Positions 3,476 through 46,144 of a DNA stretch of 46,571 nucleotides are shown here, piece after piece. Source of the stretch: Candidatus Dormiibacterota bacterium (GTDB lineage Bacteria > Chloroflexota > Dormibacteria > Aeolococcales > Aeolococcaceae); assembly GCA_003141695.1 (NCBI GenBank), contig PLNE01000172.1:221-46791 (forward strand). The letters run 5' to 3'. Under the pieces are notes generated by a model. The model searched no databases and had not been told where the DNA came from. It was given only the letters and a program-made list of their open reading frames with translations. Both the position numbers and the translations under genes were made by a program. Within the stretch, counting starts at the first letter, position 1. Each line of letters opens with the position of its first letter.

Positions 3476-5604
<2,129 letters not shown>

Positions 5605-5613
5605 ATTCTACCA
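5605..5613 (-). promoter_or_regulatory. Extended -10 promoter for the gyr operon
   Basis: Read on the minus strand this is TGGTAGAAT, an extended -10 (TGn plus TAGAAT) in an AT-rich island that stands out from the surrounding G+C-rich DNA. Transcription would start near 5597, giving a leader of about 55 nt before the TTG at 5541. No good -35 is seen, as is usual for extended -10 promoters. No start codon lies 6-9 nt downstream, so this one is not leaderless. Confidence 0.5.
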
Positions 5614-5815
5614 GTGCACTGCCCTCTGCCGGGTTGCCGGGCGGCGTTTCCCCGGCCGGCCGGTCACGCCGTCCGCGGGGCCCCGTGGTCGCTCCCCCAG
5701 CCGGTCCGGCGCTGGCCCTCGGGACGGGAGCCTCCCCGCCTCGCGAGGGTCGGGCGTTCGCCCTGGAGCTGCTCCCGTCTGGTCAGGCGAGCGCCGTTCC
5801 GGGACACTTGGACCG

Positions 5816-8611
5816 ATGGCCCTCGACGAATACCGGCGCAAGCGCGACTTCTCCCGCACGCCCGAGCCCAGCGGCGAGGCGCAGCCAGGTGCTGGCTCCG
5901 ACCGAGGGCTCTGGGACCGGCTCCCGGAGGGGAGCCGTTTCTGCGTCCAGATGCACCGGGCGACGCGGCTCCACTACGACTTCCGGCTCGAGCACCGGGG
6001 CGTCCTCCTCTCGTGGGCGATCCCTCGGGGCCCTTCGCTGGATCCCGCGTCCCGCCGCCTGGCCGTCCAGACCGAGGACCATCCCGTCGACTACGGCCAA
6101 TTCGAGGGGGTGATCCCCTCCGGGTACGGGATGGGCACCGTGGAGCTCTGGGACGCCGGCTCCTTCGAGTGGACCCGGGAGTCCGCCGCCGACCCGGAAG
6201 CTCAGATCAGAGCGGGGGACATCAAGTTCCGGCTGGCCGGGGAGAAGCTGCGCGGCGAGTTTGCCCTGGTCAGGATCGGCGGCCGCGGCCGTTACCCCGG
6301 TGCCAGCCCGGAGGCGGAGCGCAACTTCCTGCTCATCAAGAAGCGGGACGAGGCGGCGAGCGCCGGCCACGACGCCGCCGGAGAGGATCGCTCCGTCAAG
6401 AGCGGGCGGACCCTGGCGGAGATCGCCGCCGCCGGGGGCGGTGACCCGCGCCAGAAGCGACGCCCGGCCGAAGGGGCCGCGCCCTCGGCGGGTGGCGCTC
6501 CGACCGCTGCCCCCGGTTCTCCGTCGCCGCCGGACAGCGCCCCCGCCGCTGCGACCGGCTCCGCCTCGACCCCGGGTGGCAACGCCGCCGTCCCGCTCCC
6601 CTCCCCGATGCTGGCGGTCACCGCCGACCGGCCCTTCTCCCGCGCCGGCTGGATGTACGAGCTGAAGTACGACGGCATCCGGGCCACGGTGGCGGTGGAC
6701 GGATCGGGGGTCCGCGTCCTGGGCCGGCGCGGCCGCGACGAGACGCTCCGCTTTCCGGAGGCCGCCGCCATCCCCACCCAGCTCCGATCCCGGAGTGCCG
6801 TCCTCGACTGCGAGATCGTGGTCCTCGATGAGGCCGGTCATCCCGATTTCGAGAGGCTGCAGTCGCGGATCAACCTCGAGGGCCCCGGCGAGGCGCGGCG
6901 TGCCGCCGACCGCCATCCGGCCACCTTCGTCGCCTTCGACCTGCTCTCGCTCGACGGTCGCGACCTGACCGCCACCGAGCTCCGCATCCGCAAGAAGACG
7001 CTCCGAGAGCTGGTCGGCCCCTCCGGACCGGTGCTCTTCGCCGACCACGTCGAGGAGGATGGCGAGAGCTTCTTCGCTGCTGTCTCCGAGCTGGGGCTGG
7101 AGGGGATGGTCGCCAAGCGCGCCGATTCCCTCTACCAGCCGGGCCGGCGGAGCCCTGACTGGATCAAGGTCAAGGCCTGGCGCACCCAGAGCTGCGCCAT
7201 CGCCGGATGGACCGAGGGGCATGGCCGGCGGGGGCACCTCGGGGCGCTCGTCCTCGCCCTGCGTGGTGCGGGCGGCTGGGAGGCCTGCGGCCAGGTCGGC
7301 ACCGGGTTCGGGGAGGCGACGATCGCCGACCTCCTCCGCCGCATGGGGCCGCTGCGCCGGCTCACCTCCCCGATCGCCGTTCCCCCGAAGCTGACCGAGT
7401 CGGTCACCTGGGTGGAGCCGCGTCTCGTCTGCGAGGTGCGCCATGCCGGCTGGACGAGGGCGGGTGTCCTCCGGCATCCCGCCTTCCTCGCCCTCCGGGA
7501 GGACGCGGGCCCGGAGGACTGCGTTCGCGAGGAGACGGCCGACGTCGACGCGCTCGTGTCCCGGGCCGGCGCGCCCCCGCCGATTGCGGTGAGGTCGGGG
7601 CCTCCACCCCAGGCCGTGTCGCCACAGCTCCCGCCCGCGGCGGCACGGCCCGAGCTCCCGCCGGAGGTGGCCGAGGCGCTCGAGGCCCTCCCCGGCCTCC
7701 GCCCCGACGACTGGTGGCAGATCGGGTCACGGCGGCTGCATCTCACCAATCTCGACAAGCCGATCTGGCCCCAGCCCGTCATCACCAAGCGCCGGATGAT
7801 CGACTACTACGTCCGGATGTCGCCCTACCTCCTGCCCTACCTCCGCGATCGTCCGCTCTCCACCCAGGTCTTCCCGGACGGCGTCACCGGGCACTCGTTC
7901 TGGCGCAAGGACAAGCCCAGCCACGCTCCGGAGTGGATCGATTCCTGGCTTTTCGAGGGTGAGTCCGGGAGCAAGCGCTGGATCGTGGTCCGGGAGGCGG
8001 CCACGCTCGGCTGGCTGGCCAACGCGGGCGTCGTCGACCTTCACCCCTGGCATTCGCGGGTCGACGCCCCGGACCAGCCCGACTGGGCGGTCTACGATCT
8101 CGACCCCTTCGAGCCGGCCAGCTTCGACGACGTCCGGGACATCGCCCGGCTGGTGAAGGCCGCCCTCGACCACCTGGGGTTGCGCGGCCTGCTCAAGACG
8201 AGCGGCCAGACCGGCCTCCAGATCTACGTGCCGCTCCGCCGCGGTCCCGACTACGCCAGGGTCCGAGGCTGGGTGGAGGAGGTGGGCCGGGCGATCGGGC
8301 GGGTGGAGCCGGACCGGATCAGCTGGGAGTGGGCGGTGAGCCGGCGGGCTGGGCGGATCCGGATCGACTACACACAGAACATCATCAACAAGACGCTGGC
8401 GGCCCCTTACTCGCTCCGCCCCCTGCCCGGAGCCACCGTCTCGACCCCGCTCGCCTGGGAGGAGCTGGACGACCCCGGTCTCCGGCCCGACCGCTGGACC
8501 ATGGAGACGATCTGGGAGCGCCTCCGGAGCGTCGGTGACCTCTTCACCGGCGTGCTGGACGGTGACCAGCTCCTACCGCCCCAAGCGGCAGGCCGCTTGG
8601 GGACCCCATGA
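5816..8611 (+). CDS. ligD: Multifunctional NHEJ ligase LigD (PE-LIG-POL)
   Basis: LigD processes and seals double-strand breaks in bacterial non-homologous end joining, normally with Ku. The 931-aa product has three domains. A 3'-phosphoesterase comes first (about 1-165; RATRLHYDFRLEH, VIPSGYGMGTVELWD). After an Ala/Pro/Gly-rich linker (about 195-245) comes an ATP-dependent ligase (about 255-560; nucleotidyl lysine Lys284 in ELKYDGIR, EGMVAKR, WIKVK). A primase-polymerase domain ends the protein (about 640-925; catalytic DLD at Asp761/Asp763, SGQTGLQIYVPL). This is the Pseudomonas-type domain order, not the mycobacterial POL-PE-LIG order. ATG 5816 (MALDEYRRKRDFSRT) is chosen because the PE domain begins there; the upstream open frame looks non-coding. 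No ku gene is in the window. A weak GACACT lies 7 nt before the ATG. Confidence 0.95.
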   Translation: MALDEYRRKRDFSRTPEPSGEAQPGAGSDRGLWDRLPEGSRFCVQMHRATRLHYDFRLEHRGVLLSWAIPRGPSLDPASRRLAVQTEDHPVDYGQFEGVIPSGYGMGTVELWDAGSFEWTRESAADPEAQIRAGDIKFRLAGEKLRGEFALVRIGGRGRYPGASPEAERNFLLIKKRDEAASAGHDAAGEDRSVKSGRTLAEIAAAGGGDPRQKRRPAEGAAPSAGGAPTAAPGSPSPPDSAPAAATGSASTPGGNAAVPLPSPMLAVTADRPFSRAGWMYELKYDGIRATVAVDGSGVRVLGRRGRDETLRFPEAAAIPTQLRSRSAVLDCEIVVLDEAGHPDFERLQSRINLEGPGEARRAADRHPATFVAFDLLSLDGRDLTATELRIRKKTLRELVGPSGPVLFADHVEEDGESFFAAVSELGLEGMVAKRADSLYQPGRRSPDWIKVKAWRTQSCAIAGWTEGHGRRGHLGALVLALRGAGGWEACGQVGTGFGEATIADLLRRMGPLRRLTSPIAVPPKLTESVTWVEPRLVCEVRHAGWTRAGVLRHPAFLALREDAGPEDCVREETADVDALVSRAGAPPPIAVRSGPPPQAVSPQLPPAAARPELPPEVAEALEALPGLRPDDWWQIGSRRLHLTNLDKPIWPQPVITKRRMIDYYVRMSPYLLPYLRDRPLSTQVFPDGVTGHSFWRKDKPSHAPEWIDSWLFEGESGSKRWIVVREAATLGWLANAGVVDLHPWHSRVDAPDQPDWAVYDLDPFEPASFDDVRDIARLVKAALDHLGLRGLLKTSGQTGLQIYVPLRRGPDYARVRGWVEEVGRAIGRVEPDRISWEWAVSRRAGRIRIDYTQNIINKTLAAPYSLRPLPGATVSTPLAWEELDDPGLRPDRWTMETIWERLRSVGDLFTGVLDGDQLLPPQAAGRLGTP
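8579..8602. repeat. Tandem hairpin unit 1 (11-bp arms)
   Basis: A perfect 11+2+11 inverted repeat (left arm CCCCAAGCGGC) lies over the last codons of ligD. It is preceded by CCG and followed by ACCC, as is unit 2 at 8634. No T-run follows, so a classical rho-independent terminator is not supported, although the position at the end of ligD suggests transcription termination or 3'-end protection. Confidence 0.7.
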
Positions 8612-25384: not shown

Positions 25385-27928
25385 TCAGGCAGCGGCCGGG
25401 GGAGGGGAGGCGGCGATCCCCCGGGGGGAGGCGCGCGGCACTTCCCAAGTCGGGGTCAGCGTGCTGTCGGGACCCTTCTCGGAACGCGCCGGGATGGTGA
25501 GGGCAAAGGTTGTCCCCGCGGCCCCGCTCTCGTCGACCCAGATCCGACCGCCCAGTCCCTCCACGATGCGGCGGCAGGTGGCAAGCCCCAGCCCGCTTCC
25601 GGGCGCCCCGGTCTCACCGCGGACAAAGGGCTCGAAGATCTGCTCGCGCAGGTCGGCGGGAATGCCCTCGCCGTTGTCGCGGCAGCGCACCGTCCACGCC
25701 CCGTCCTGGGGCTGCGCGTCGATGCGGATCCTGGGGGCGCGAGCGCCCCCGTGCTTGATGGCGTTCTCGACGAGGTTCTGAAGCACCAGCTCCATCTCCG
25801 CGAAGTTGCCGAGGACCGTGGGAAGGTCGCCGGTCTCGACCACGGCCCCGTGCTCGACGATCGTTGATTCGAGGGTCGCCAGGGTACGCTCGACGGCCAG
25901 GTTAAGGTCGACAGGCTTGCCGGGGCCGCCTCCGCCGTCGAGCTCTGCATAGCGGAGCAGGTCGGAGACCAGCTCGCCGGCGTATGCGGAGACCTCCCCT
26001 ATCTGGTCCACGATCCGCAGCATCGCTTCGGCGACGTCGCCCGGGCCGGCCCTGGCACGGGCCACCGATGCCCACATCGATATGGTCGCCAGGGGATTGC
26101 GGAGGTCGTGGGCCATGGCGTGGCTGAAGGTGGCCAGGTCGGCATTGGAACGGCGGAGCTTCTCGGTCATCTCTTCGCGCTCCACCGAGAGGCTCAGCAG
26201 AGCGCCTGTCTCGAAGAACCGATCGCGGATGGGGGAGTTGATGAAGTCGATCGACGTGACCATGGCGAGCAGGCCGAAGTCGGAGCTCGCGGTCCTGGCG
26301 GGGAGCACGATGGCGAACTCCCCCGGGCCCCACTCAAGGTCCTCGAGCAGGGCGGTGGGCGGGAATTCCTCGCTCCGGACCTGATTCGGGAGCCCAAGCT
26401 GTCCTCCGTCCCGGAGGTACGAGCCGGCGATGGTGAGCAGGCGCTCCTCTGGGGCCGGCGTCTTTCCCCCGGTCGACCACATCCCGATGCACCCGGCCCG
26501 CGCCGGCGTATGGGCGATCCAGCCGAGCGAGGTCAGGTCCTGAGCGGCCCCTCGCACCAGGGACATGCTCAGGTCGTGGTCCTGGGCCATCGCCGTGTGC
26601 AGCGCGTATCGGGCATGCGACTCCTGCTTGGCCAGGGAGCCGCCGAACTCCACCACCATCTCTACCATGCCCGAGTAGAGCTCCGCCGGGTCCCGGCGGG
26701 GGCCGGCGGTCTCCGCCAGCTCGGCCTCATACTGGCGCAGGCAAGCGACGGCAGCGGTCGCGGTCGTCCACCTCGGGCTCACGGCCCGGAGCGCCCTGGC
26801 CACCTCTCGGAACGCCTCCTCATGTGGGGGGCCGGAGTGGGTCTCGGTCTCTGCGAAGCCGGCGACAAGCTCCACGGCCCGGTCCAGGGCGGCGGTCTGC
26901 GGGGCGGTGAGAGGCTCCATCCCCACCAGGCCGCGCGCCAGGCGGAATCTCAACCTCTCCCGTGGTGCCGTTTCCAGGTCCATCGCGAGCTCGCTTGGCT
27001 GGTCGAGCAGCCCGACGCTGCCGCAGCCGCAGGACTCGCGGGGCAGGAAGAGGCTCGGCACCCGGTGCACACCGCCCGCGACCTCCCCACCGCCGACCAT
27101 CTCCAACAGAAGATCGGCCGCGAGCCTGCCCATCTCTTCGAAGCGCTGACAGACGGTGGAGAGGGTGGGCTGGGTCGAGGCCGCCTCTTCGACGTCGTCG
27201 AAACCGGTGATTGCCTGGTCGTCGGGGAGTGACAGCCCCGTCTCGCTGAGCACCCTCATGATGTCGATGGCGTTGTAATCGGTGGCGGCCACGACGGCGG
27301 TGGACGGCAGGCCCGCCGCCAGCATCCGCCGTGCCGCCAGCTCGCCGCCGCCGGCCGCGTTGCTCTCGGCCTCGAAGATCAGCCCGGGGTCCGGCTCGAT
27401 GCCGTGCATCAGGAGGGCCTCCTGGTACGCCGCGAGCCGCTCCTTGAGGTCCGATTGGACGAGGCTCCCGGCGAACGCGATGCGGTGGTGACCGTGCTCA
27501 ACCAGGTGGGAGACCGCCTCGATGATGCCGCTCCGGTTGTCGGGGCGTACCACTGGGAAGGGGAACCCCTCGACCTCGCTGCTGACCAGGACCACCGGCT
27601 TCCCGGCCTCCTGCAGGGCCCGCAGATACCACGGTTCGACGGCGTTGAGCACCACGATGAAGCCGGCCACCTGCTCCCATGCGGCGGGCACGGCGAACCG
27701 GGGCACAGCCATTTCCGCGGCCGCATGAGCGCCCCCGTAGCCCAGGTCCAGGGTCTGGATGGCGATCAGCCTGGCACCTCGCGCCTCGGCGGCGGCGGCG
27801 ATCCCCCCGATCACCCCGCCGAAGTAGCCGCCAGCCGCGAGCGGGGTCAGGACGCCGATCCGCGGGTGGTCTCTCTGCCCCTCATTCGTCACGGCCCGTG
27901 CCTCGCATCTCGACGGTTGACCCACCAT
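25385..27928 (-). CDS. Soluble histidine kinase with LacI-type ligand-binding domain
   Basis: An 847-aa sensor kinase. Residues about 20-310 form a periplasmic-binding-protein/LacI-type sensor (RIGVLTPLAAGGYFGG, DNRSGIIEAVSHLVEHGHHRIAFAG, AITGFDDVEEA), without the LacI DNA-binding helix-turn-helix. A long middle region may be GAF-like. A HisKA domain follows (FSHAMAHDLRNPL, phospho-acceptor His607) and then a HATPase (NLVENAIKHGG, DNGEGIP, GSGLGLATCRRIV). No signal peptide or transmembrane helix is seen, so it should sense a cytoplasmic ligand, perhaps a sugar or nucleoside. A cluster of Cys residues (ESCGCGS) closes the sensor domain. No response regulator is adjacent. ATG 27928 is chosen, with a weak CACATT 9 nt upstream; GTG 27892 is possible. 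Confidence 0.85.
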   Translation of the reverse strand: MVGQPSRCEARAVTNEGQRDHPRIGVLTPLAAGGYFGGVIGGIAAAAEARGARLIAIQTLDLGYGGAHAAAEMAVPRFAVPAAWEQVAGFIVVLNAVEPWYLRALQEAGKPVVLVSSEVEGFPFPVVRPDNRSGIIEAVSHLVEHGHHRIAFAGSLVQSDLKERLAAYQEALLMHGIEPDPGLIFEAESNAAGGGELAARRMLAAGLPSTAVVAATDYNAIDIMRVLSETGLSLPDDQAITGFDDVEEAASTQPTLSTVCQRFEEMGRLAADLLLEMVGGGEVAGGVHRVPSLFLPRESCGCGSVGLLDQPSELAMDLETAPRERLRFRLARGLVGMEPLTAPQTAALDRAVELVAGFAETETHSGPPHEEAFREVARALRAVSPRWTTATAAVACLRQYEAELAETAGPRRDPAELYSGMVEMVVEFGGSLAKQESHARYALHTAMAQDHDLSMSLVRGAAQDLTSLGWIAHTPARAGCIGMWSTGGKTPAPEERLLTIAGSYLRDGGQLGLPNQVRSEEFPPTALLEDLEWGPGEFAIVLPARTASSDFGLLAMVTSIDFINSPIRDRFFETGALLSLSVEREEMTEKLRRSNADLATFSHAMAHDLRNPLATISMWASVARARAGPGDVAEAMLRIVDQIGEVSAYAGELVSDLLRYAELDGGGGPGKPVDLNLAVERTLATLESTIVEHGAVVETGDLPTVLGNFAEMELVLQNLVENAIKHGGARAPRIRIDAQPQDGAWTVRCRDNGEGIPADLREQIFEPFVRGETGAPGSGLGLATCRRIVEGLGGRIWVDESGAAGTTFALTIPARSEKGPDSTLTPTWEVPRASPRGIAASPPPAAA

Positions 27929-27941
27929 CCCCGGAGCAATG

Positions 27942-27986
27942 TGGCTCTGCCGGCGCGGTGGCGCAGCCACCGCCATGGCTCTGCCG
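27942..27986. repeat. Direct repeat pair flanking a hairpin, upstream of the kinase gene
   Basis: TGGCTCTGCCG occurs at 27942-27952 and 27976-27986, 34 bp apart start to start. Between the copies is an inverted repeat GCGGTGGC-gca-GCCACCGC (27955-27973). The element is in the 243-bp divergent gap between the kinase and the DUF1444-like gene, 14 bp from the kinase start. The rest of the gap is G+C-rich with a further 9-bp inverted repeat and no gene. Confidence 0.4.
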
Positions 27987-39493: not shown

Positions 39494-40294
39494 TCACATT
39501 GCCGGTGCAATGTCGCGCACCAGCAGGGCGTCCATCCCCGGCGTCCACACCGTCCTGCGGTCCGGCGTGATCGCCAGCGCCTCGTATCCGTTCATCCCCG
39601 CGATCCAGTGCAGCCCCTGCTCACCCATCACGAACGCCGCGGTGGCGAAGGCGTCGGCGTAGGTGAGGCTGGGGCCGACCACGGTCATGCTGAGCAGCCC
39701 ACACGGGGCTCGCCCGGTGCGCGGGTCGAGGATGTGGTCGCCGCGCTCATAGGCCCCGCTGGTGGCGATCGCCAGGTCACCGGCCTCCAGCACCATGGCG
39801 ACCTGGTCGGCGATCTCGGGGTGGCGGATGCCGACCCTCCAGCGCTCGCCGGGAGCGGCCTCCCCCCGGGTCACGATGTCGCCCCCCGCGCCGACGAAGT
39901 AGCTGCGGGCACCGGCCGCTCGCAGCAGCTCCGCTGCGCGCTGCACCGACCAGCCCTTCACCAGGCCCGAGGGATCGAGCCGGCCTCCGCTGTGGATGTC
40001 GAAACAGCCCCCGCTCCTGCGCGCGACCTCAGCGCACAGTCCCAGCACCTCGCGAACCTCTGGAGAGCACTCGCTCTCCTTCAGCTCGCCGCGCCCCATG
40101 CGGCTGATCTCGCTGCCGGTGCGGTAGGTGCTGAAGGTGGCATCCACCTCGTGCAGCCAGGCGATGGCCGCGTTGACGGCCGCCTCGACCGCCGGCTCCC
40201 TCGGGTGGGGGTCGCGCACGTCGATGGTGACCATCGTCCCCATGACCGGCTCCACCCGCACCGTCCGCCGCTCCGCCGCACCGGCGTCAGGCAC
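39494..40294 (-). CDS. apbE: FAD:protein FMN transferase (ApbE family)
   Basis: ApbE attaches FMN from FAD covalently to a Thr of FMN-binding domains. The 266-aa product has the family blocks EPVMGTMVTIDV, DPSGLVKGWSVQRAAELL, YFVGAGGDIVTRG, ATSGAYERGDHILDPRTG and SLTYADAFATAAFVMG, which provide FAD- and Mg-binding residues. The start GTG 40294 overlaps the end of the upstream FMN-binding gene by 8 bp; longer starts would read through that gene in another frame. No signal peptide or lipobox is seen, whereas many ApbE proteins are exported. Its likely substrate is the FMN-binding protein encoded next door. A hairpin (39496-39513) overlaps its stop codon. Confidence 0.9.
   Translation of the reverse strand: MPDAGAAERRTVRVEPVMGTMVTIDVRDPHPREPAVEAAVNAAIAWLHEVDATFSTYRTGSEISRMGRGELKESECSPEVREVLGLCAEVARRSGGCFDIHSGGRLDPSGLVKGWSVQRAAELLRAAGARSYFVGAGGDIVTRGEAAPGERWRVGIRHPEIADQVAMVLEAGDLAIATSGAYERGDHILDPRTGRAPCGLLSMTVVGPSLTYADAFATAAFVMGEQGLHWIAGMNGYEALAITPDRRTVWTPGMDALLVRDIAPAM
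39496..39513 (-). repeat. Inverted repeat at the end of apbE
   Basis: ACATTGC-cggt-GCAATGT forms a 7-bp hairpin overlapping the apbE stop codon. No T-run follows. A weak terminator separating the flavin cluster from ftsH is possible. Confidence 0.4.
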
Positions 40295-40820
40295 GCGCCA
40301 GATCCAATGCCGACTGGACCGACTGGGCGTAGCCCTCGCTGGTGAAGGTGGCGCCACCAATGATGTTGATCTTCGCGCTCTGGGCCTGGAGAACCTCCTC
40401 GCGGAGCAGTGGAAGAGCCTGGGAGTTGATGAACACGGACTGCTGATGGCCATTGGGGTACTGGATGGTCTTGACGTCGGTGATCTTGCCGCCCGAGATC
40501 ACCACCTGTACCTGAACGTTCCCGTACGGGTTCGCGTAGGTCTGCCCCGTGAACGAACCCGACTTCAGCCCGCTCGCCGTCGGCTTCGGGGTGGGAGTCG
40601 CGGTCGTGGTGGCGGTCGGGGTCGGCGAGGCGCCGCCCGAAGGCGGTGCGGCCGAGGGTGTGGCCGTGGGGCTGGGCACTGAGCTGGATGACGAGGTGGA
40701 GGATGGCGCCAGGGTGGCGATCGGCGCCGCAGGTGGGGTCCGGAAGCTGAAGAGCAGGACGACCCCTATCGCGGTGGCGGCCAGGGTGACGGCGGCGCGG
40801 ATCGGCATTGCAGGGGGCAC
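40287..40820 (-). CDS. Membrane-anchored FMN-binding domain protein
   Basis: A 177-aa protein with a single N-terminal membrane anchor (about 6-25; AAVTLAATAIGVVLLFSF), a Ser/Thr/Pro-rich linker of about 55 residues and a C-terminal FMN-binding domain of the NqrC/RnfG type. The flavinylation site is visible as GGATFTSEGYAQS, with Thr160 the expected FMN acceptor. Such proteins pass electrons at the outer face of the membrane. The start is either GTG 40820, directly next to the upstream stop (TGAGTG), or ATG 40808. It is flanked by the ferric-reductase-like gene upstream and apbE downstream, making one operon of electron donor, flavoprotein and flavin ligase. Confidence 0.9.
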   Translation of the reverse strand: MPPAMPIRAAVTLAATAIGVVLLFSFRTPPAAPIATLAPSSTSSSSSVPSPTATPSAAPPSGGASPTPTATTTATPTPKPTASGLKSGSFTGQTYANPYGNVQVQVVISGGKITDVKTIQYPNGHQQSVFINSQALPLLREEVLQAQSAKINIIGGATFTSEGYAQSVQSALDLARA

Positions 40821-42248
40821 TCAGGTGAGGAACGCAAAGCGTTCGCAGTGGACTTGCGCGGCGGGGACGCGGAGCGCGCGCAGGCTGGTGATGACGGCGT
40901 CGACCATCTCCCGCGGCCCGCAGACGAAGACGTCGCGATCCCGGAGGTCGGGCACGGACGCGGCCAGGAACCGCGGTGAGAACGGCTGGGGGTGGACCTC
41001 CTGCCCGCGTTGCCCAACGATGTAGTGGATGACGCCCCCGCGGGCTGCGACCAGCTGGTCCAGCTCCGCCTTGAAGACGACGTCATCCCAGGAATGGGCC
41101 CGGTAGAGGAGGGCGATCGAATTCTTGCGCTGCGGCATCTCCTCGATCAGCGCCCGGAGCGGGGTGATGCCGATCCCCCCGGCGATGAGTAGCGCCCGTG
41201 GCCGCCGGCGCCGGATCGAGGTGAAGGCTCCGTGCGGGCCCTCCAGGATCACTGGGGTGCCGGGGCGAAGGCTGGTCAGCGAGCGGGTGAAGTCACCGAC
41301 CTGCTTGACGGTGATGCGGAGGTACTTGCCGTTCGGCGCCGCCGAGAGCGAGAAGGGGTGGACGCGCCACCACAGCTCGCGGGTGACGAAGCGGAACTTG
41401 AAGAACTGGCCGGCGCGCATCGGTAGCTCGCCGAGGTCGCGACCAGTGATGTAGATGGAGACGACGTTCGGAGACTCCGCGACCAGGTGGTGCACCCGCA
41501 GGCGGTGGCGCCACGCCATCCGCATGGGGATCGCCAGCCGGAATGCGATGACCAGCGCGGCTGCGGCGGTGTAGAGCGCCAGCCAGTATCCGACCGCCCA
41601 GGGGTCGCCGGCGAAGTCGGTGCCCGCCGTGAGCTGATGCGCAAAGCCGAGCGCGATCGCCAGGTAGACGTAGAGATGGATGAAGTGCCAGGTCTGGTGG
41701 GAGACGCGACGCCGCGCGGCTCGCACCGAGGTCACCGCGATGACGATGAACAGGGCTGCCGCGACGTAGGCCATCAGCATGTACGGGTAGGTGGTGAGGA
41801 AGACCCAGGTCTGGGTCGCGAAGGAGCGGCCATCGGCCATCGCGTAACCGGCGGTGGTGAGGACGACATGACCGCAGATCAGGCAGACCGTGGCGAAACC
41901 GAGCCAGCGGTGCCAGCCGCTGATGCGATCGATCCCGAAGAGGTTGTCCAGCCACGGGCTGCGCGACATCAGCACCAGCTGCACCAGCGCGCAGTAGGTG
42001 CCCAGCAGGGCGGCGACCTGACCGGCGCCGGTCAGCACCGCCGCCGGGTGCGTCAGATTGGGGAACTGCCCGTGGCGAACCCACATCCCCACGATGAGGA
42101 GGGCATTGGCGGCGAAGATCAGGATGACGTCGCTCGGGCGCAGCCCCCAGCGCCGGGGCGCACGCTGGGCCCTCCGGGTGGTCGCGGAGGAGGGGGCGTC
42201 CAGATCGGCGGGCGCAGCGAGCACGGCGGCGGCGGCGCGGGTGGGCAT
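40821..42248 (-). CDS. Ferric reductase-like transmembrane oxidoreductase with FAD/NAD module
   Basis: A 475-aa protein joining a heme-binding ferric-reductase-like membrane domain to a ferredoxin reductase-type module. About six helices span residues 40-235, with candidate heme histidines in GWHRWLG, CGHVVL, TWHFIHLY and FAHQL. The C-terminal half has an FAD site (HPFSLSAAPN), an NAD(P) site (GGIGITPLRALIEEM) and the closing VCGPREMVDAVITSL. It should oxidise cytoplasmic NAD(P)H and pass electrons through heme across the membrane. ATG 42248 (MPTRAAAAVL) is the start nearest the conserved part. It leads the FMN-binding/apbE operon. It is related to NOX/FRE and MsrQ-type proteins; the final acceptor is unknown. 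Confidence 0.9.
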   Translation of the reverse strand: MPTRAAAAVLAAPADLDAPSSATTRRAQRAPRRWGLRPSDVILIFAANALLIVGMWVRHGQFPNLTHPAAVLTGAGQVAALLGTYCALVQLVLMSRSPWLDNLFGIDRISGWHRWLGFATVCLICGHVVLTTAGYAMADGRSFATQTWVFLTTYPYMLMAYVAAALFIVIAVTSVRAARRRVSHQTWHFIHLYVYLAIALGFAHQLTAGTDFAGDPWAVGYWLALYTAAAALVIAFRLAIPMRMAWRHRLRVHHLVAESPNVVSIYITGRDLGELPMRAGQFFKFRFVTRELWWRVHPFSLSAAPNGKYLRITVKQVGDFTRSLTSLRPGTPVILEGPHGAFTSIRRRRPRALLIAGGIGITPLRALIEEMPQRKNSIALLYRAHSWDDVVFKAELDQLVAARGGVIHYIVGQRGQEVHPQPFSPRFLAASVPDLRDRDVFVCGPREMVDAVITSLRALRVPAAQVHCERFAFLT

Positions 42249-43371: not shown

Positions 43372-45024
43372 CTAGGGAAGGGCAAACCCCATGGGTCTCA
43401 GCATGATCGCATTGCGGTCCAGGCGGGTCCCCTCGAGCGCCGACCCGAACCCCGCCATCGGGAAGTTGGCGGCGAGCTCGCGATGGAGGGCAGCCATCTC
43501 CAGGGTCGTCTCAGCGTGCTCTGCCTCGGCCGGCCCGTCGTGGTCGATCATCGTGCTGGCGATGCCCAGCACCCCACCACCGGCGTCGAAGAGCTCGACC
43601 AGCCGGGCCTGGCACGGCCAGTCCACCAGCGACGCGGTGGTGACCTCCCACAGACCGTGCCCCTCGCCGCGCGGTGCGGAGCGGGCGTGGACGGCGTGGA
43701 TGTGGGTGTGCCCGTTGAGCCAGAGGACGACGTTGTCGAAGCGGAGAAGGGTGGACAGCAGCCGGGCCCCGGCTCCGGGGATCGTGCCGTCCGCATGCGG
43801 GCGGGTGCTCAGCGGACCGTACGACCCGTGGTGCGAGACGACGACCACGAGGCGGTCCTCCGCCCCCGTCTGCACCCGCGGACCGTCGGCGGTGCGGTAG
43901 GAGGAGTGCACCTCGGCGAGGCGATCCTCGAGCCAGCCGAGTTGTGCTTCGTCCATGCAGAGGTCGGCTGATCCGCCCGGGCAGGCGGTGTCTAGCACGA
44001 TGAACCTGACCGGCGCCGTGTCGTGGACGTGGAAGGCGGTGAGCTCCCGGCGGTTCCGCTCGTCGAATCCGTGGTTCCGTGGTGCCGTCCCGCCACCGTG
44101 CGCGCAGACGTACTCCCCGATGCTGCAGTGCCGCCGCTCGGCGTCCGGGGTGACGTTGACCGTGGGGCCGGCAAGGAAGGTCTCGGGCTGGTGGACGAAG
44201 GTGTCGTGGGCCTGCTCCCGGTCGAATCCGTCGGGCAACGCGATCGGCTTGCGCCGGGCGACGAGCGCCTCCTGGAGACCCGGCGTCATCTGCCCGACGC
44301 CCTGGCAGAGCGAGTCGTGGTTGCCGTGGCAGCCGAGCCAGGGCAGCCGAAGGCCGGGTGCCTCGAAGGGCAACAGGGCCCGCTGGAGCAGTCCGGGCAG
44401 CACCGGGTAGCCGAAGTCGCGCGCAAACATGTCAGGCGTCCCCGGCCTGCCGTCGGGCACCCAGAAGAAGTCGTCGGGCCAATCGACCGACTGCACCCCC
44501 TCATAGTCCGGCGCGCCCGAGTTCGGATCGACGCGGCCTCCGTCCAGCAGCCGGAGGAGGGTGTGCACCTCGTTGTGCTGGCCGTTGTCGATCGCGTCGC
44601 CCCCGGTCAGAACCAGCTCGGGTGCCGCCCCGGTGATGGGGCCGGCCAGACCGCCGTTCAGGGTGCGCACGAGCGCAGCCAGGGCGTGCGGGGTCAGGGC
44701 CTCCTGGGGGCGCTGCATCGGGATCAGCTCGGCGAACCGGGGGTCGCGAAACTCGCGGTTGATGAACTCGAAGCGGGCCGGCGACTGGACGTCACCGACG
44801 TGCAGGTCGGTCATGTGGGCGACGCAGGCGATCGCTCTCCGCTCACCCGCCGGAAGAGCTCGGCCGTCGCCGATCGGCCCCGCCCCCGCCCCCGCCGCCC
44901 CCAGCAGTTCGGTGCGGATCACGTGCTCCTCCCCCGGGCCGGGCGCGACCGCCCGGTACGGAGCCTGCGTGCCGGTGCTCAGGACGTCGCCCGGGCCGAG
45001 GGTCTGACGGTGGGTGAGTGGCAT
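43372..45024 (-). CDS. Metallophosphoesterase (TIGR03767-like)
   Basis: A 550-aa calcineurin-type metallophosphoesterase resembling the actinobacterial TIGR03767 family. All five motifs are present: MTDLHVGD, GGDAIDN, GCHGNHD, VVSHHG and NGHTHIH. An insertion between the second and third motifs (about 130-220, Trp/Asp/Pro-rich) and a long C-terminal extension make it larger than simple phosphatases. No signal peptide was seen at ATG 45024. GGAGG lies 10 nt upstream. It starts 4 bp after the ABC ATPase stop, so it is in an operon with a PotA-like transporter; hydrolysis of an imported phosphate ester is a reasonable inference, but the substrate is unknown. Confidence 0.85.
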   Translation of the reverse strand: MPLTHRQTLGPGDVLSTGTQAPYRAVAPGPGEEHVIRTELLGAAGAGAGPIGDGRALPAGERRAIACVAHMTDLHVGDVQSPARFEFINREFRDPRFAELIPMQRPQEALTPHALAALVRTLNGGLAGPITGAAPELVLTGGDAIDNGQHNEVHTLLRLLDGGRVDPNSGAPDYEGVQSVDWPDDFFWVPDGRPGTPDMFARDFGYPVLPGLLQRALLPFEAPGLRLPWLGCHGNHDSLCQGVGQMTPGLQEALVARRKPIALPDGFDREQAHDTFVHQPETFLAGPTVNVTPDAERRHCSIGEYVCAHGGGTAPRNHGFDERNRRELTAFHVHDTAPVRFIVLDTACPGGSADLCMDEAQLGWLEDRLAEVHSSYRTADGPRVQTGAEDRLVVVVSHHGSYGPLSTRPHADGTIPGAGARLLSTLLRFDNVVLWLNGHTHIHAVHARSAPRGEGHGLWEVTTASLVDWPCQARLVELFDAGGGVLGIASTMIDHDGPAEAEHAETTLEMAALHRELAANFPMAGFGSALEGTRLDRNAIMLRPMGFALP

Positions 45025-45028
45025 CGAG

Positions 45029-46144
45029 CTATCGCCTCCCCTGAGCGTCTTCCCGGGTGACCAGGACCGGGTCCTGGCGCAGCGCGATGCGGACCCGCGA
45101 TCCGCCCGGGTGGGCGGCGGCATCGGCGGTGGGGATCTGGACCAGCACGGTGGTATCGCCCAGGTCGACCGTCAGCCTGCTCACCGCGCCGAGAAAGGAG
45201 ACGGCGATCACCGTCCCCGAGAGCGGTCCGTTGGAGCTGTCGATCGCCGGCGCCAGTGACATCGCTTCCGGCCGCACCAGGGCCACCGCGGGGCCGTCCG
45301 GCGTGTCCGTGGCGATGAGAGGCAGGCGGATGCCGCGGACGTCGACGGCCCCACCGGTCACCACTCCGGCCAGGCGGTTGGTGAGGCCGACGAATTCGGC
45401 CACGAAGGGCGTCGCCGGCTGGGAGTAGATGGTGGTGGGCGGTCCCATCTGCTCCAGCCGGCCGGCGCGCATGACGCCGACCCGGTCGGCGATGGCGAGC
45501 GCCTCCTCCTGGTCGTGGGTGACGAAGAGGGTGGTGATTCCGACCTCGCGCTGGACGCGGCGGATCTCGTCCCGGAGCTGGCTGCGAACCCGGGCGTCGA
45601 GGGCGGAGAGGGGTTCGTCGAGGAGCAGGACGGACGGCCGGATGGCGAGCGCACGCGCCAGCGCCACCCGCTGCTGCTGCCCACCGGAGAGCTGGTGCGC
45701 GTAGCGATCCGCCTGGGTGCTCAGCCCCACCAGCTCGAGCATCTCCCCGGCGCGCTGGCGGCGCTCGGCGACCCCGACCTTGCGCATGCGCAGTCCGAAG
45801 GCGACGTTCTCCCGGGCTGTCATGTGCGGGAACAGCGAGTACGCCTGGAACACCATGCCGCTGTCGCGCCGGCTGGTGGGCAGATGGGTCACGTCCCGGC
45901 CATCGATCACAACGCGGCCACCGTCGGCTTCCTCGAGTCCGGCGACGAGGCGCAGGGCCGTTGTCTTGCCACACCCCGAGGGTCCCAGGAGGGCGACGAG
46001 CTCCCCGGCTTCGATGGTGATGCTGAGACCGTCGAGCGCGGTGGTCGATCCGTACATTCGGCGCAGGTCCTCGAGCCTCACCTCGGCGGCTGCACGCGAG
46101 CCGCCCCACGATGTGCCGAGCGGACGGGTGTCGAGCGCGCCCAT
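45029..46144 (-). CDS. ABC transporter ATPase (PotA/FbpC-like, with TOBE domain)
   Basis: A 371-aa importer ATPase of the CUT1/polyamine/iron/phosphonate class. Walker A is GPSGCGKTT (about 54-62), the Q-loop is VFQAYSLFPHMT, the signature is LSGGQQQR, Walker B is LLLDEPLSALD and the H-loop is VTHDQEEAL. A C-terminal TOBE regulatory domain follows (about 285-365; LVRPEAMSLAP). It lies 1 bp from the permease stop and 4 bp from the metallophosphoesterase start. Polyamine, Fe(III), thiamine and 2-aminoethylphosphonate transporters share this layout. The phosphoesterase neighbour favours a phosphorus compound, by context only. The substrate-binding protein would lie beyond the right edge. Confidence 0.93.
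   Translation of the reverse strand: MGALDTRPLGTSWGGSRAAAEVRLEDLRRMYGSTTALDGLSITIEAGELVALLGPSGCGKTTALRLVAGLEEADGGRVVIDGRDVTHLPTSRRDSGMVFQAYSLFPHMTARENVAFGLRMRKVGVAERRQRAGEMLELVGLSTQADRYAHQLSGGQQQRVALARALAIRPSVLLLDEPLSALDARVRSQLRDEIRRVQREVGITTLFVTHDQEEALAIADRVGVMRAGRLEQMGPPTTIYSQPATPFVAEFVGLTNRLAGVVTGGAVDVRGIRLPLIATDTPDGPAVALVRPEAMSLAPAIDSSNGPLSGTVIAVSFLGAVSRLTVDLGDTTVLVQIPTADAAAHPGGSRVRIALRQDPVLVTREDAQGRR

Follow-up and report, generated by a model that had tools for sequence, protein, structure and literature searches.

A probable MsrQ-like flavinylated electron-transfer triad from Dormibacterota with an ApbE that shows no evident export signal

Here, we explored a compact set of three genes in a 46,571-nucleotide stretch of the genome of a soil Candidatus Dormiibacterota bacterium ("the window" denotes this whole stretch). 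The set very probably constitutes an MsrQ-like flavinylated extracytosolic electron-transfer system, in which electrons would pass from NAD(P)H through FAD and hemes to FMN on Thr158 of an anchored protein. A preliminary description of the locus as a flavinylation-based electron-transfer operon is well backed by the homology of the proteins, by the cofactor residues that they keep and by the preserved gene order. The triad is unexceptional among published MsrQ-like systems, comes from a phylum that has been sampled less, and provides a Dormibacterota example of a widespread electron-export class that is experimentally almost untouched. The part worth carrying forward is the localisation of ApbE, the predicted flavin transferase.

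The host genome (3.1 Mb in 241 contigs, 79.6% complete) carries the triad on the minus strand of the window, in the order reductase, FMN_bind, apbE and without gaps:

40821-42248, minus strand: heme/FAD/NAD(P)H transmembrane reductase, 475 aa, with Ferric_reduct, FAD_binding_8 and NAD_binding_1 domains
40287-40820, minus strand: N-terminally anchored FMN_bind protein, 177 aa from a GTG start, PF04205
39494-40294, minus strand: ApbE FAD:protein FMN transferase, 267 aa from a GTG start, PF02424

The GTG start of the FMN_bind gene directly abuts the stop of the reductase gene, the GTG start of apbE is overlapped by 8 nt by the FMN_bind stop, and the Pfam matches of all three proteins exceed the cut-off, so that the three coupled genes initially described are indeed present at these positions and on this strand. 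These are also the sole PF01794, PF04205 and PF02424 genes found in the host genome at its 79.6% completeness. By reductase, the nearest named relative is the Candidatus Dormibacterota MAG palsa_874 (93%), followed by the Candidatus Dormibacterota MAG bog_854, deposited as Candidatus Changshengia (75%).

By definition, an MsrQ-like system is a flavinylation gene cluster that contains a PF01794 gene, and the defining survey counts 1797 such clusters in 1468 genomes, mostly of Actinobacteria, which typically hold both apbE and an FMN_bind gene and for which NAD(P)H is the proposed donor (Meheust et al., eLife 2021, PMC8238504). Membership requires a PF01794 gene no more than 5 genes away from an ApbE or FMN_bind gene; here, the three genes are adjacent, a C-terminal PF00175 domain assigns the reductase to the NAD subtype, and four conserved histidines provide candidate heme ligands. 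The minimal arrangement of three genes with its fused NAD module had initially been singled out as worth comparing, but C-terminal PF00175 occurs in 1437 of the 1797 published clusters (PMC8238504), which makes this the commonest published form; the reading as a novel minimal variant was rejected on this ground. The window triad shares with the NAD type the fusion of PF01794 to PF00175, the adjacent FMN_bind and apbE genes, the lack of a fixed terminal acceptor gene and a type widespread in Actinobacteria, and differs in its Dormibacterota host and its NIIGGAT motif. The MsrPQ methionine sulfoxide reductase has the same PF01794 heme membrane core, but MsrQ has no FAD/NAD domain fused to it and partners with MsrP; the window reductase falls outside the MsrQ equivalog proper, scoring 22 bits with the NCBIfam MsrQ model against a cut-off of 130.

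All three domains of the reductase are recognised by Pfam (PF01794, E=2.8e-16; PF08022, E=1.7e-6; PF00175, E=7.4e-10), the last spanning residues 354-452. The AlphaFold model (mean pLDDT 73) contains six transmembrane helices (residues 38-64, 68-94, 106-139, 155-179, 184-208 and 216-248) and places the candidate heme ligands His113 and His127 on TM3, 14 residues apart, and His191 and His204 on TM5, 13 residues apart. In an alignment with 19 homologues of 43-93% identity, these four histidines are invariant, as are the GG-G-TP loop and the CGP motif of the NAD(P)H site (GGIGITP, 357-363; CGP, 443-445), and the HPFSLS flavin-site stretch is mostly kept. Given the invariant histidines and the NOX-like fold, the natural reading is that the protein would hold two b hemes within the membrane that receive their electrons from NAD(P)H and FAD.

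The top fold matches of the model are the Streptococcus pneumoniae NADPH oxidase SpNOX (PDB 8qta and 8qt6, E 2e-17 to 1e-16) and human NOX2. SpNOX, the closest solved structure by both sequence and fold, has the same six-TM two-heme core and FAD/NAD(P)H dehydrogenase domain, but it was solved as a stand-alone enzyme and is only about 20% identical to the window reductase. This affinity raises the alternative of a prokaryotic NADPH oxidase that acts directly on oxygen or ferric iron, the flavinylated protein being only an auxiliary electron outlet. The gene neighbourhoods bear on this possibility from both sides. According to our count from a table of loci, about 55 of the 80 named loci, mainly from Actinomycetota, Chloroflexota and Dormibacterota, hold the triad in the same order; in 17, the reductase has no recognisable FMN_bind neighbour in the stretch examined, and the remainder comprise reductase and FMN_bind. 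Relatives of the reductase can therefore work without an FMN_bind partner, which, together with the two motif departures described below, counts against the MsrQ-like reading. Nevertheless, FMN_bind and apbE directly follow the reductase in all same-genus triad copies and in most relatives, and are essentially its sole conserved neighbours outside the genus, so that an oxidase with the flavinylated protein as a mere side outlet appears unlikely.

Within the genus, all 6 other genomes keep the triad order along with the flanking genes, whereas outside it essentially the triad alone is shared. Across the 20 loci of relatives that were fetched, the three genes are contiguous in 17. The genes stay together in every same-genus triad copy; the exceptions are the paralogous copies in L038 and L040, which have no adjacent apbE, and a distant locus (L049), in which apbE is divergent and lies about 2.7 kb away. 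The paralogous copies are second reductase-FMN_bind pairs of the same genus (L038, 6416-8348; L040, 6418-8356) with a reductase about 74% identical and a TGATYDS or SGATYDS motif, presumably flavinylated in trans. Further afield, Streptomyces and Frigoribacterium plasmids carry triads annotated as ferredoxin reductase, FMN-binding protein and FAD:protein FMN transferase.

The MsrQ-like reading places the flavin outside the cytosol, on the FMN_bind protein. In this protein, a clear N-terminal hydrophobic anchor (residues ~9-26) is followed by a Pro/Ser/Thr linker and a single FMN_bind domain (residues 100-173; PF04205, E=2.8e-7); an internal ATG lies at residue 5. The AlphaFold model of this protein is too poor to use (pLDDT 49). 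Export by the Tat route was considered and rejected, the protein having no twin-arginine. The domain matches that of SaFMN3 (PDB 8P2A; profile E=2e-26), a Streptomyces azureus protein for which covalent FMN has been demonstrated by experiment and a domain crystallised (PMC10339131). Both proteins belong to the same FMN_bind subfamily and share an N-terminal anchor and the flavinylation site, but SaFMN3 has three FMN domains and the window protein one.

ApbE presents a different picture. It is recognised by profile (PF02424, E=5e-50; PDB profile matches with E down to 5e-31) and its catalytic region is kept, with HILDP (His187) and ADAFAT (Asp214, Thr218). However, no export or lipidation signal is evident on the window protein, which has no hydrophobic or transmembrane segment at its N-terminus. 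The start codon lies about 17 residues ahead of the conserved MGT, and the in-frame codons upstream of it extend into the overlapping FMN_bind gene. The same holds among named genomes (loci L052-L131): none of the 56 ApbEs encoded directly downstream of FMN_bind has an evident signal peptide or membrane segment. The FMN_bind stop and the ApbE MG motif are separated by a median of 29 nt, and by at most 75 nt in 55 of the 56; the highest N-terminal hydropathy of these ApbEs is 1.45, and the FMN_bind N-termini of the same loci, some of them open frames whose true start is not delimited, have a median of 1.97. This assessment relies on hydropathy and gene overlap in place of a signal-peptide predictor, and it agrees with the tabulated candidate starts and with two ApbEs annotated on plasmids. 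Nor was an alternative exported partner found: no other ApbE was found in the host genome, at 79.6% completeness, and among the other ApbEs of the sampled related genomes, those with a clear start likewise show no obvious signal peptide. Many related Dormibacterota genomes of a second family (L132-L161) carry a different apbE, with no PF04205 gene detected.

In the literature, ApbE is usually described as exported (PMC12052999), and the authors of the SaFMN3 study took an extracellular ApbE as given (PMC10339131), although a review mentions a cytosolic Klebsiella ApbE that serves a soluble fumarate reductase (PMC12052999). Apart from that Klebsiella case, we found no discussion of a signal-less ApbE with a secreted substrate in the open-licence literature searched, including the available portion of the MsrQ-like survey (PMC8238504), even though the feature extends to sampled Actinomycetota members of the class. 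Given the lack of an export signal, it does not follow from the sequence that ApbE acts outside the membrane. Instead, this lack suggests, as the simplest explanation, cytosolic flavinylation before Sec insertion, and we tentatively propose that in the triads of Dormibacterota, Chloroflexota and Actinomycetota ApbE may be cytosolic and modify its anchored substrate prior to Sec translocation. If so, the flavin would be exported already bound to protein and export of FAD would not be needed, unlike in the accepted scheme, which has ApbE working outside the membrane on FAD brought there. More broadly, a signal-less ApbE beside a predicted extracytosolic substrate poses the question of where, relative to the membrane, and at what stage the flavin is attached.

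The alternatives to flavinylation before export are that ApbE is exported by an unknown route or that the FMN_bind domain is itself cytosolic, alongside ApbE, in which case the system would not be extracytosolic at all. The latter arrangement would account for the missing export signal and is compatible with the near-balanced charges around the FMN_bind anchor (R8 before, R27 after), but it would render a two-heme transmembrane relay useless. Moreover, a long Pro/Ser/Thr linker, such as the one that follows the anchor here, typically lies on the outer side. SaFMN3, the Streptomyces homologue, is also predicted to be anchored outside (PMC10339131), and we consider a cytosolic FMN_bind domain very unlikely.

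The residue to which ApbE links FMN is the last one in the motif Dxx[S/T]GA[S/T] (PMC12052999), and therefore the predicted acceptor in the NIIGGAT motif of the window protein is Thr158 of GAT. The preliminary description had placed the flavin on Thr160, the second threonine of GGATFTS (residues 155-161, numbered from the GTG); this assignment has to be corrected, given that position 160 is Asp in three homologues (L038, L040 and L042). As to conservation of the motif, Thr160 is variable, whereas Thr158, the actual predicted site, is invariant in the alignment of 20 homologues. Compared with the consensus, GAT is present, N replaces D, and G replaces S/T. GGAT follows N-I-I/V in all same-genus triad copies but one (L037, with SGAT), and SGAT is found in most other relatives. 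That the variant motif is no longer flavinylated in the genus, the protein binding FMN non-covalently or decaying, would fit the two genus-wide departures from the consensus but is very unlikely considering the invariant Thr158, the adjacent apbE retained at 75-88% identity within the genus, the reappearance of GGAT in another genus (L045: IDILGGAT), and the minor effect on flavinylation that a review ascribes to a D-to-A change in the motif (PMC12052999).

For the MsrQ-like system, these features suggest the following route. Cytosolic NAD(P)H would reduce the FAD carried by the dehydrogenase domain at the C-terminus of the reductase, as its homology implies, and electrons would traverse the membrane via two b hemes on His113/His127 and His191/His204. 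They would next reach FMN in phosphoester linkage with Thr158 of the anchored FMN_bind protein, whose flexible linker could allow the flavin domain to meet first the reductase, at its outer face, and afterwards an acceptor that is either soluble or part of the envelope. ApbE, whose translation is probably coupled to that of its substrate, would attach FMN from FAD, most plausibly in the cytosol and ahead of Sec insertion.

As originally noted, no dedicated terminal acceptor is encoded beside the triad. A conserved neighbour in this role was considered and rejected: the flanking genes for an ADH, a metallophosphoesterase, an ABC ATPase and FtsH are syntenic only within the genus, FtsH alone recurring near the triad outside it, at one locus (L042). 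By analogy with relatives linked to VIT genes, ferric iron would be our best guess. Iron assimilation has been proposed for 153 VIT1-linked MsrQ-like clusters (PMC8238504), and the Frigoribacterium plasmid triad adjoins a VIT family gene and a DUF2231 gene. Counting against an iron link, the two VIT1 genes of the host genome sit on other contigs.

Several other genes of the window deserve mention in their own right. The metallophosphoesterase near the triad (43372-45123, minus strand), syntenic within the genus, belongs to the TIGR03767 family (341 bits against a cut-off of 331). An ORF at 25385-27976 (minus strand) combines a sugar-binding domain of the LacI type (PF13377) with a histidine kinase (PF00512 and PF02518), a sensor fusion with periplasmic-binding-like input. 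Finally, a LigD with three domains (phosphoesterase, ligase and primase-polymerase), a bacterial NHEJ ligase, is encoded at 5594-8611 (plus strand).
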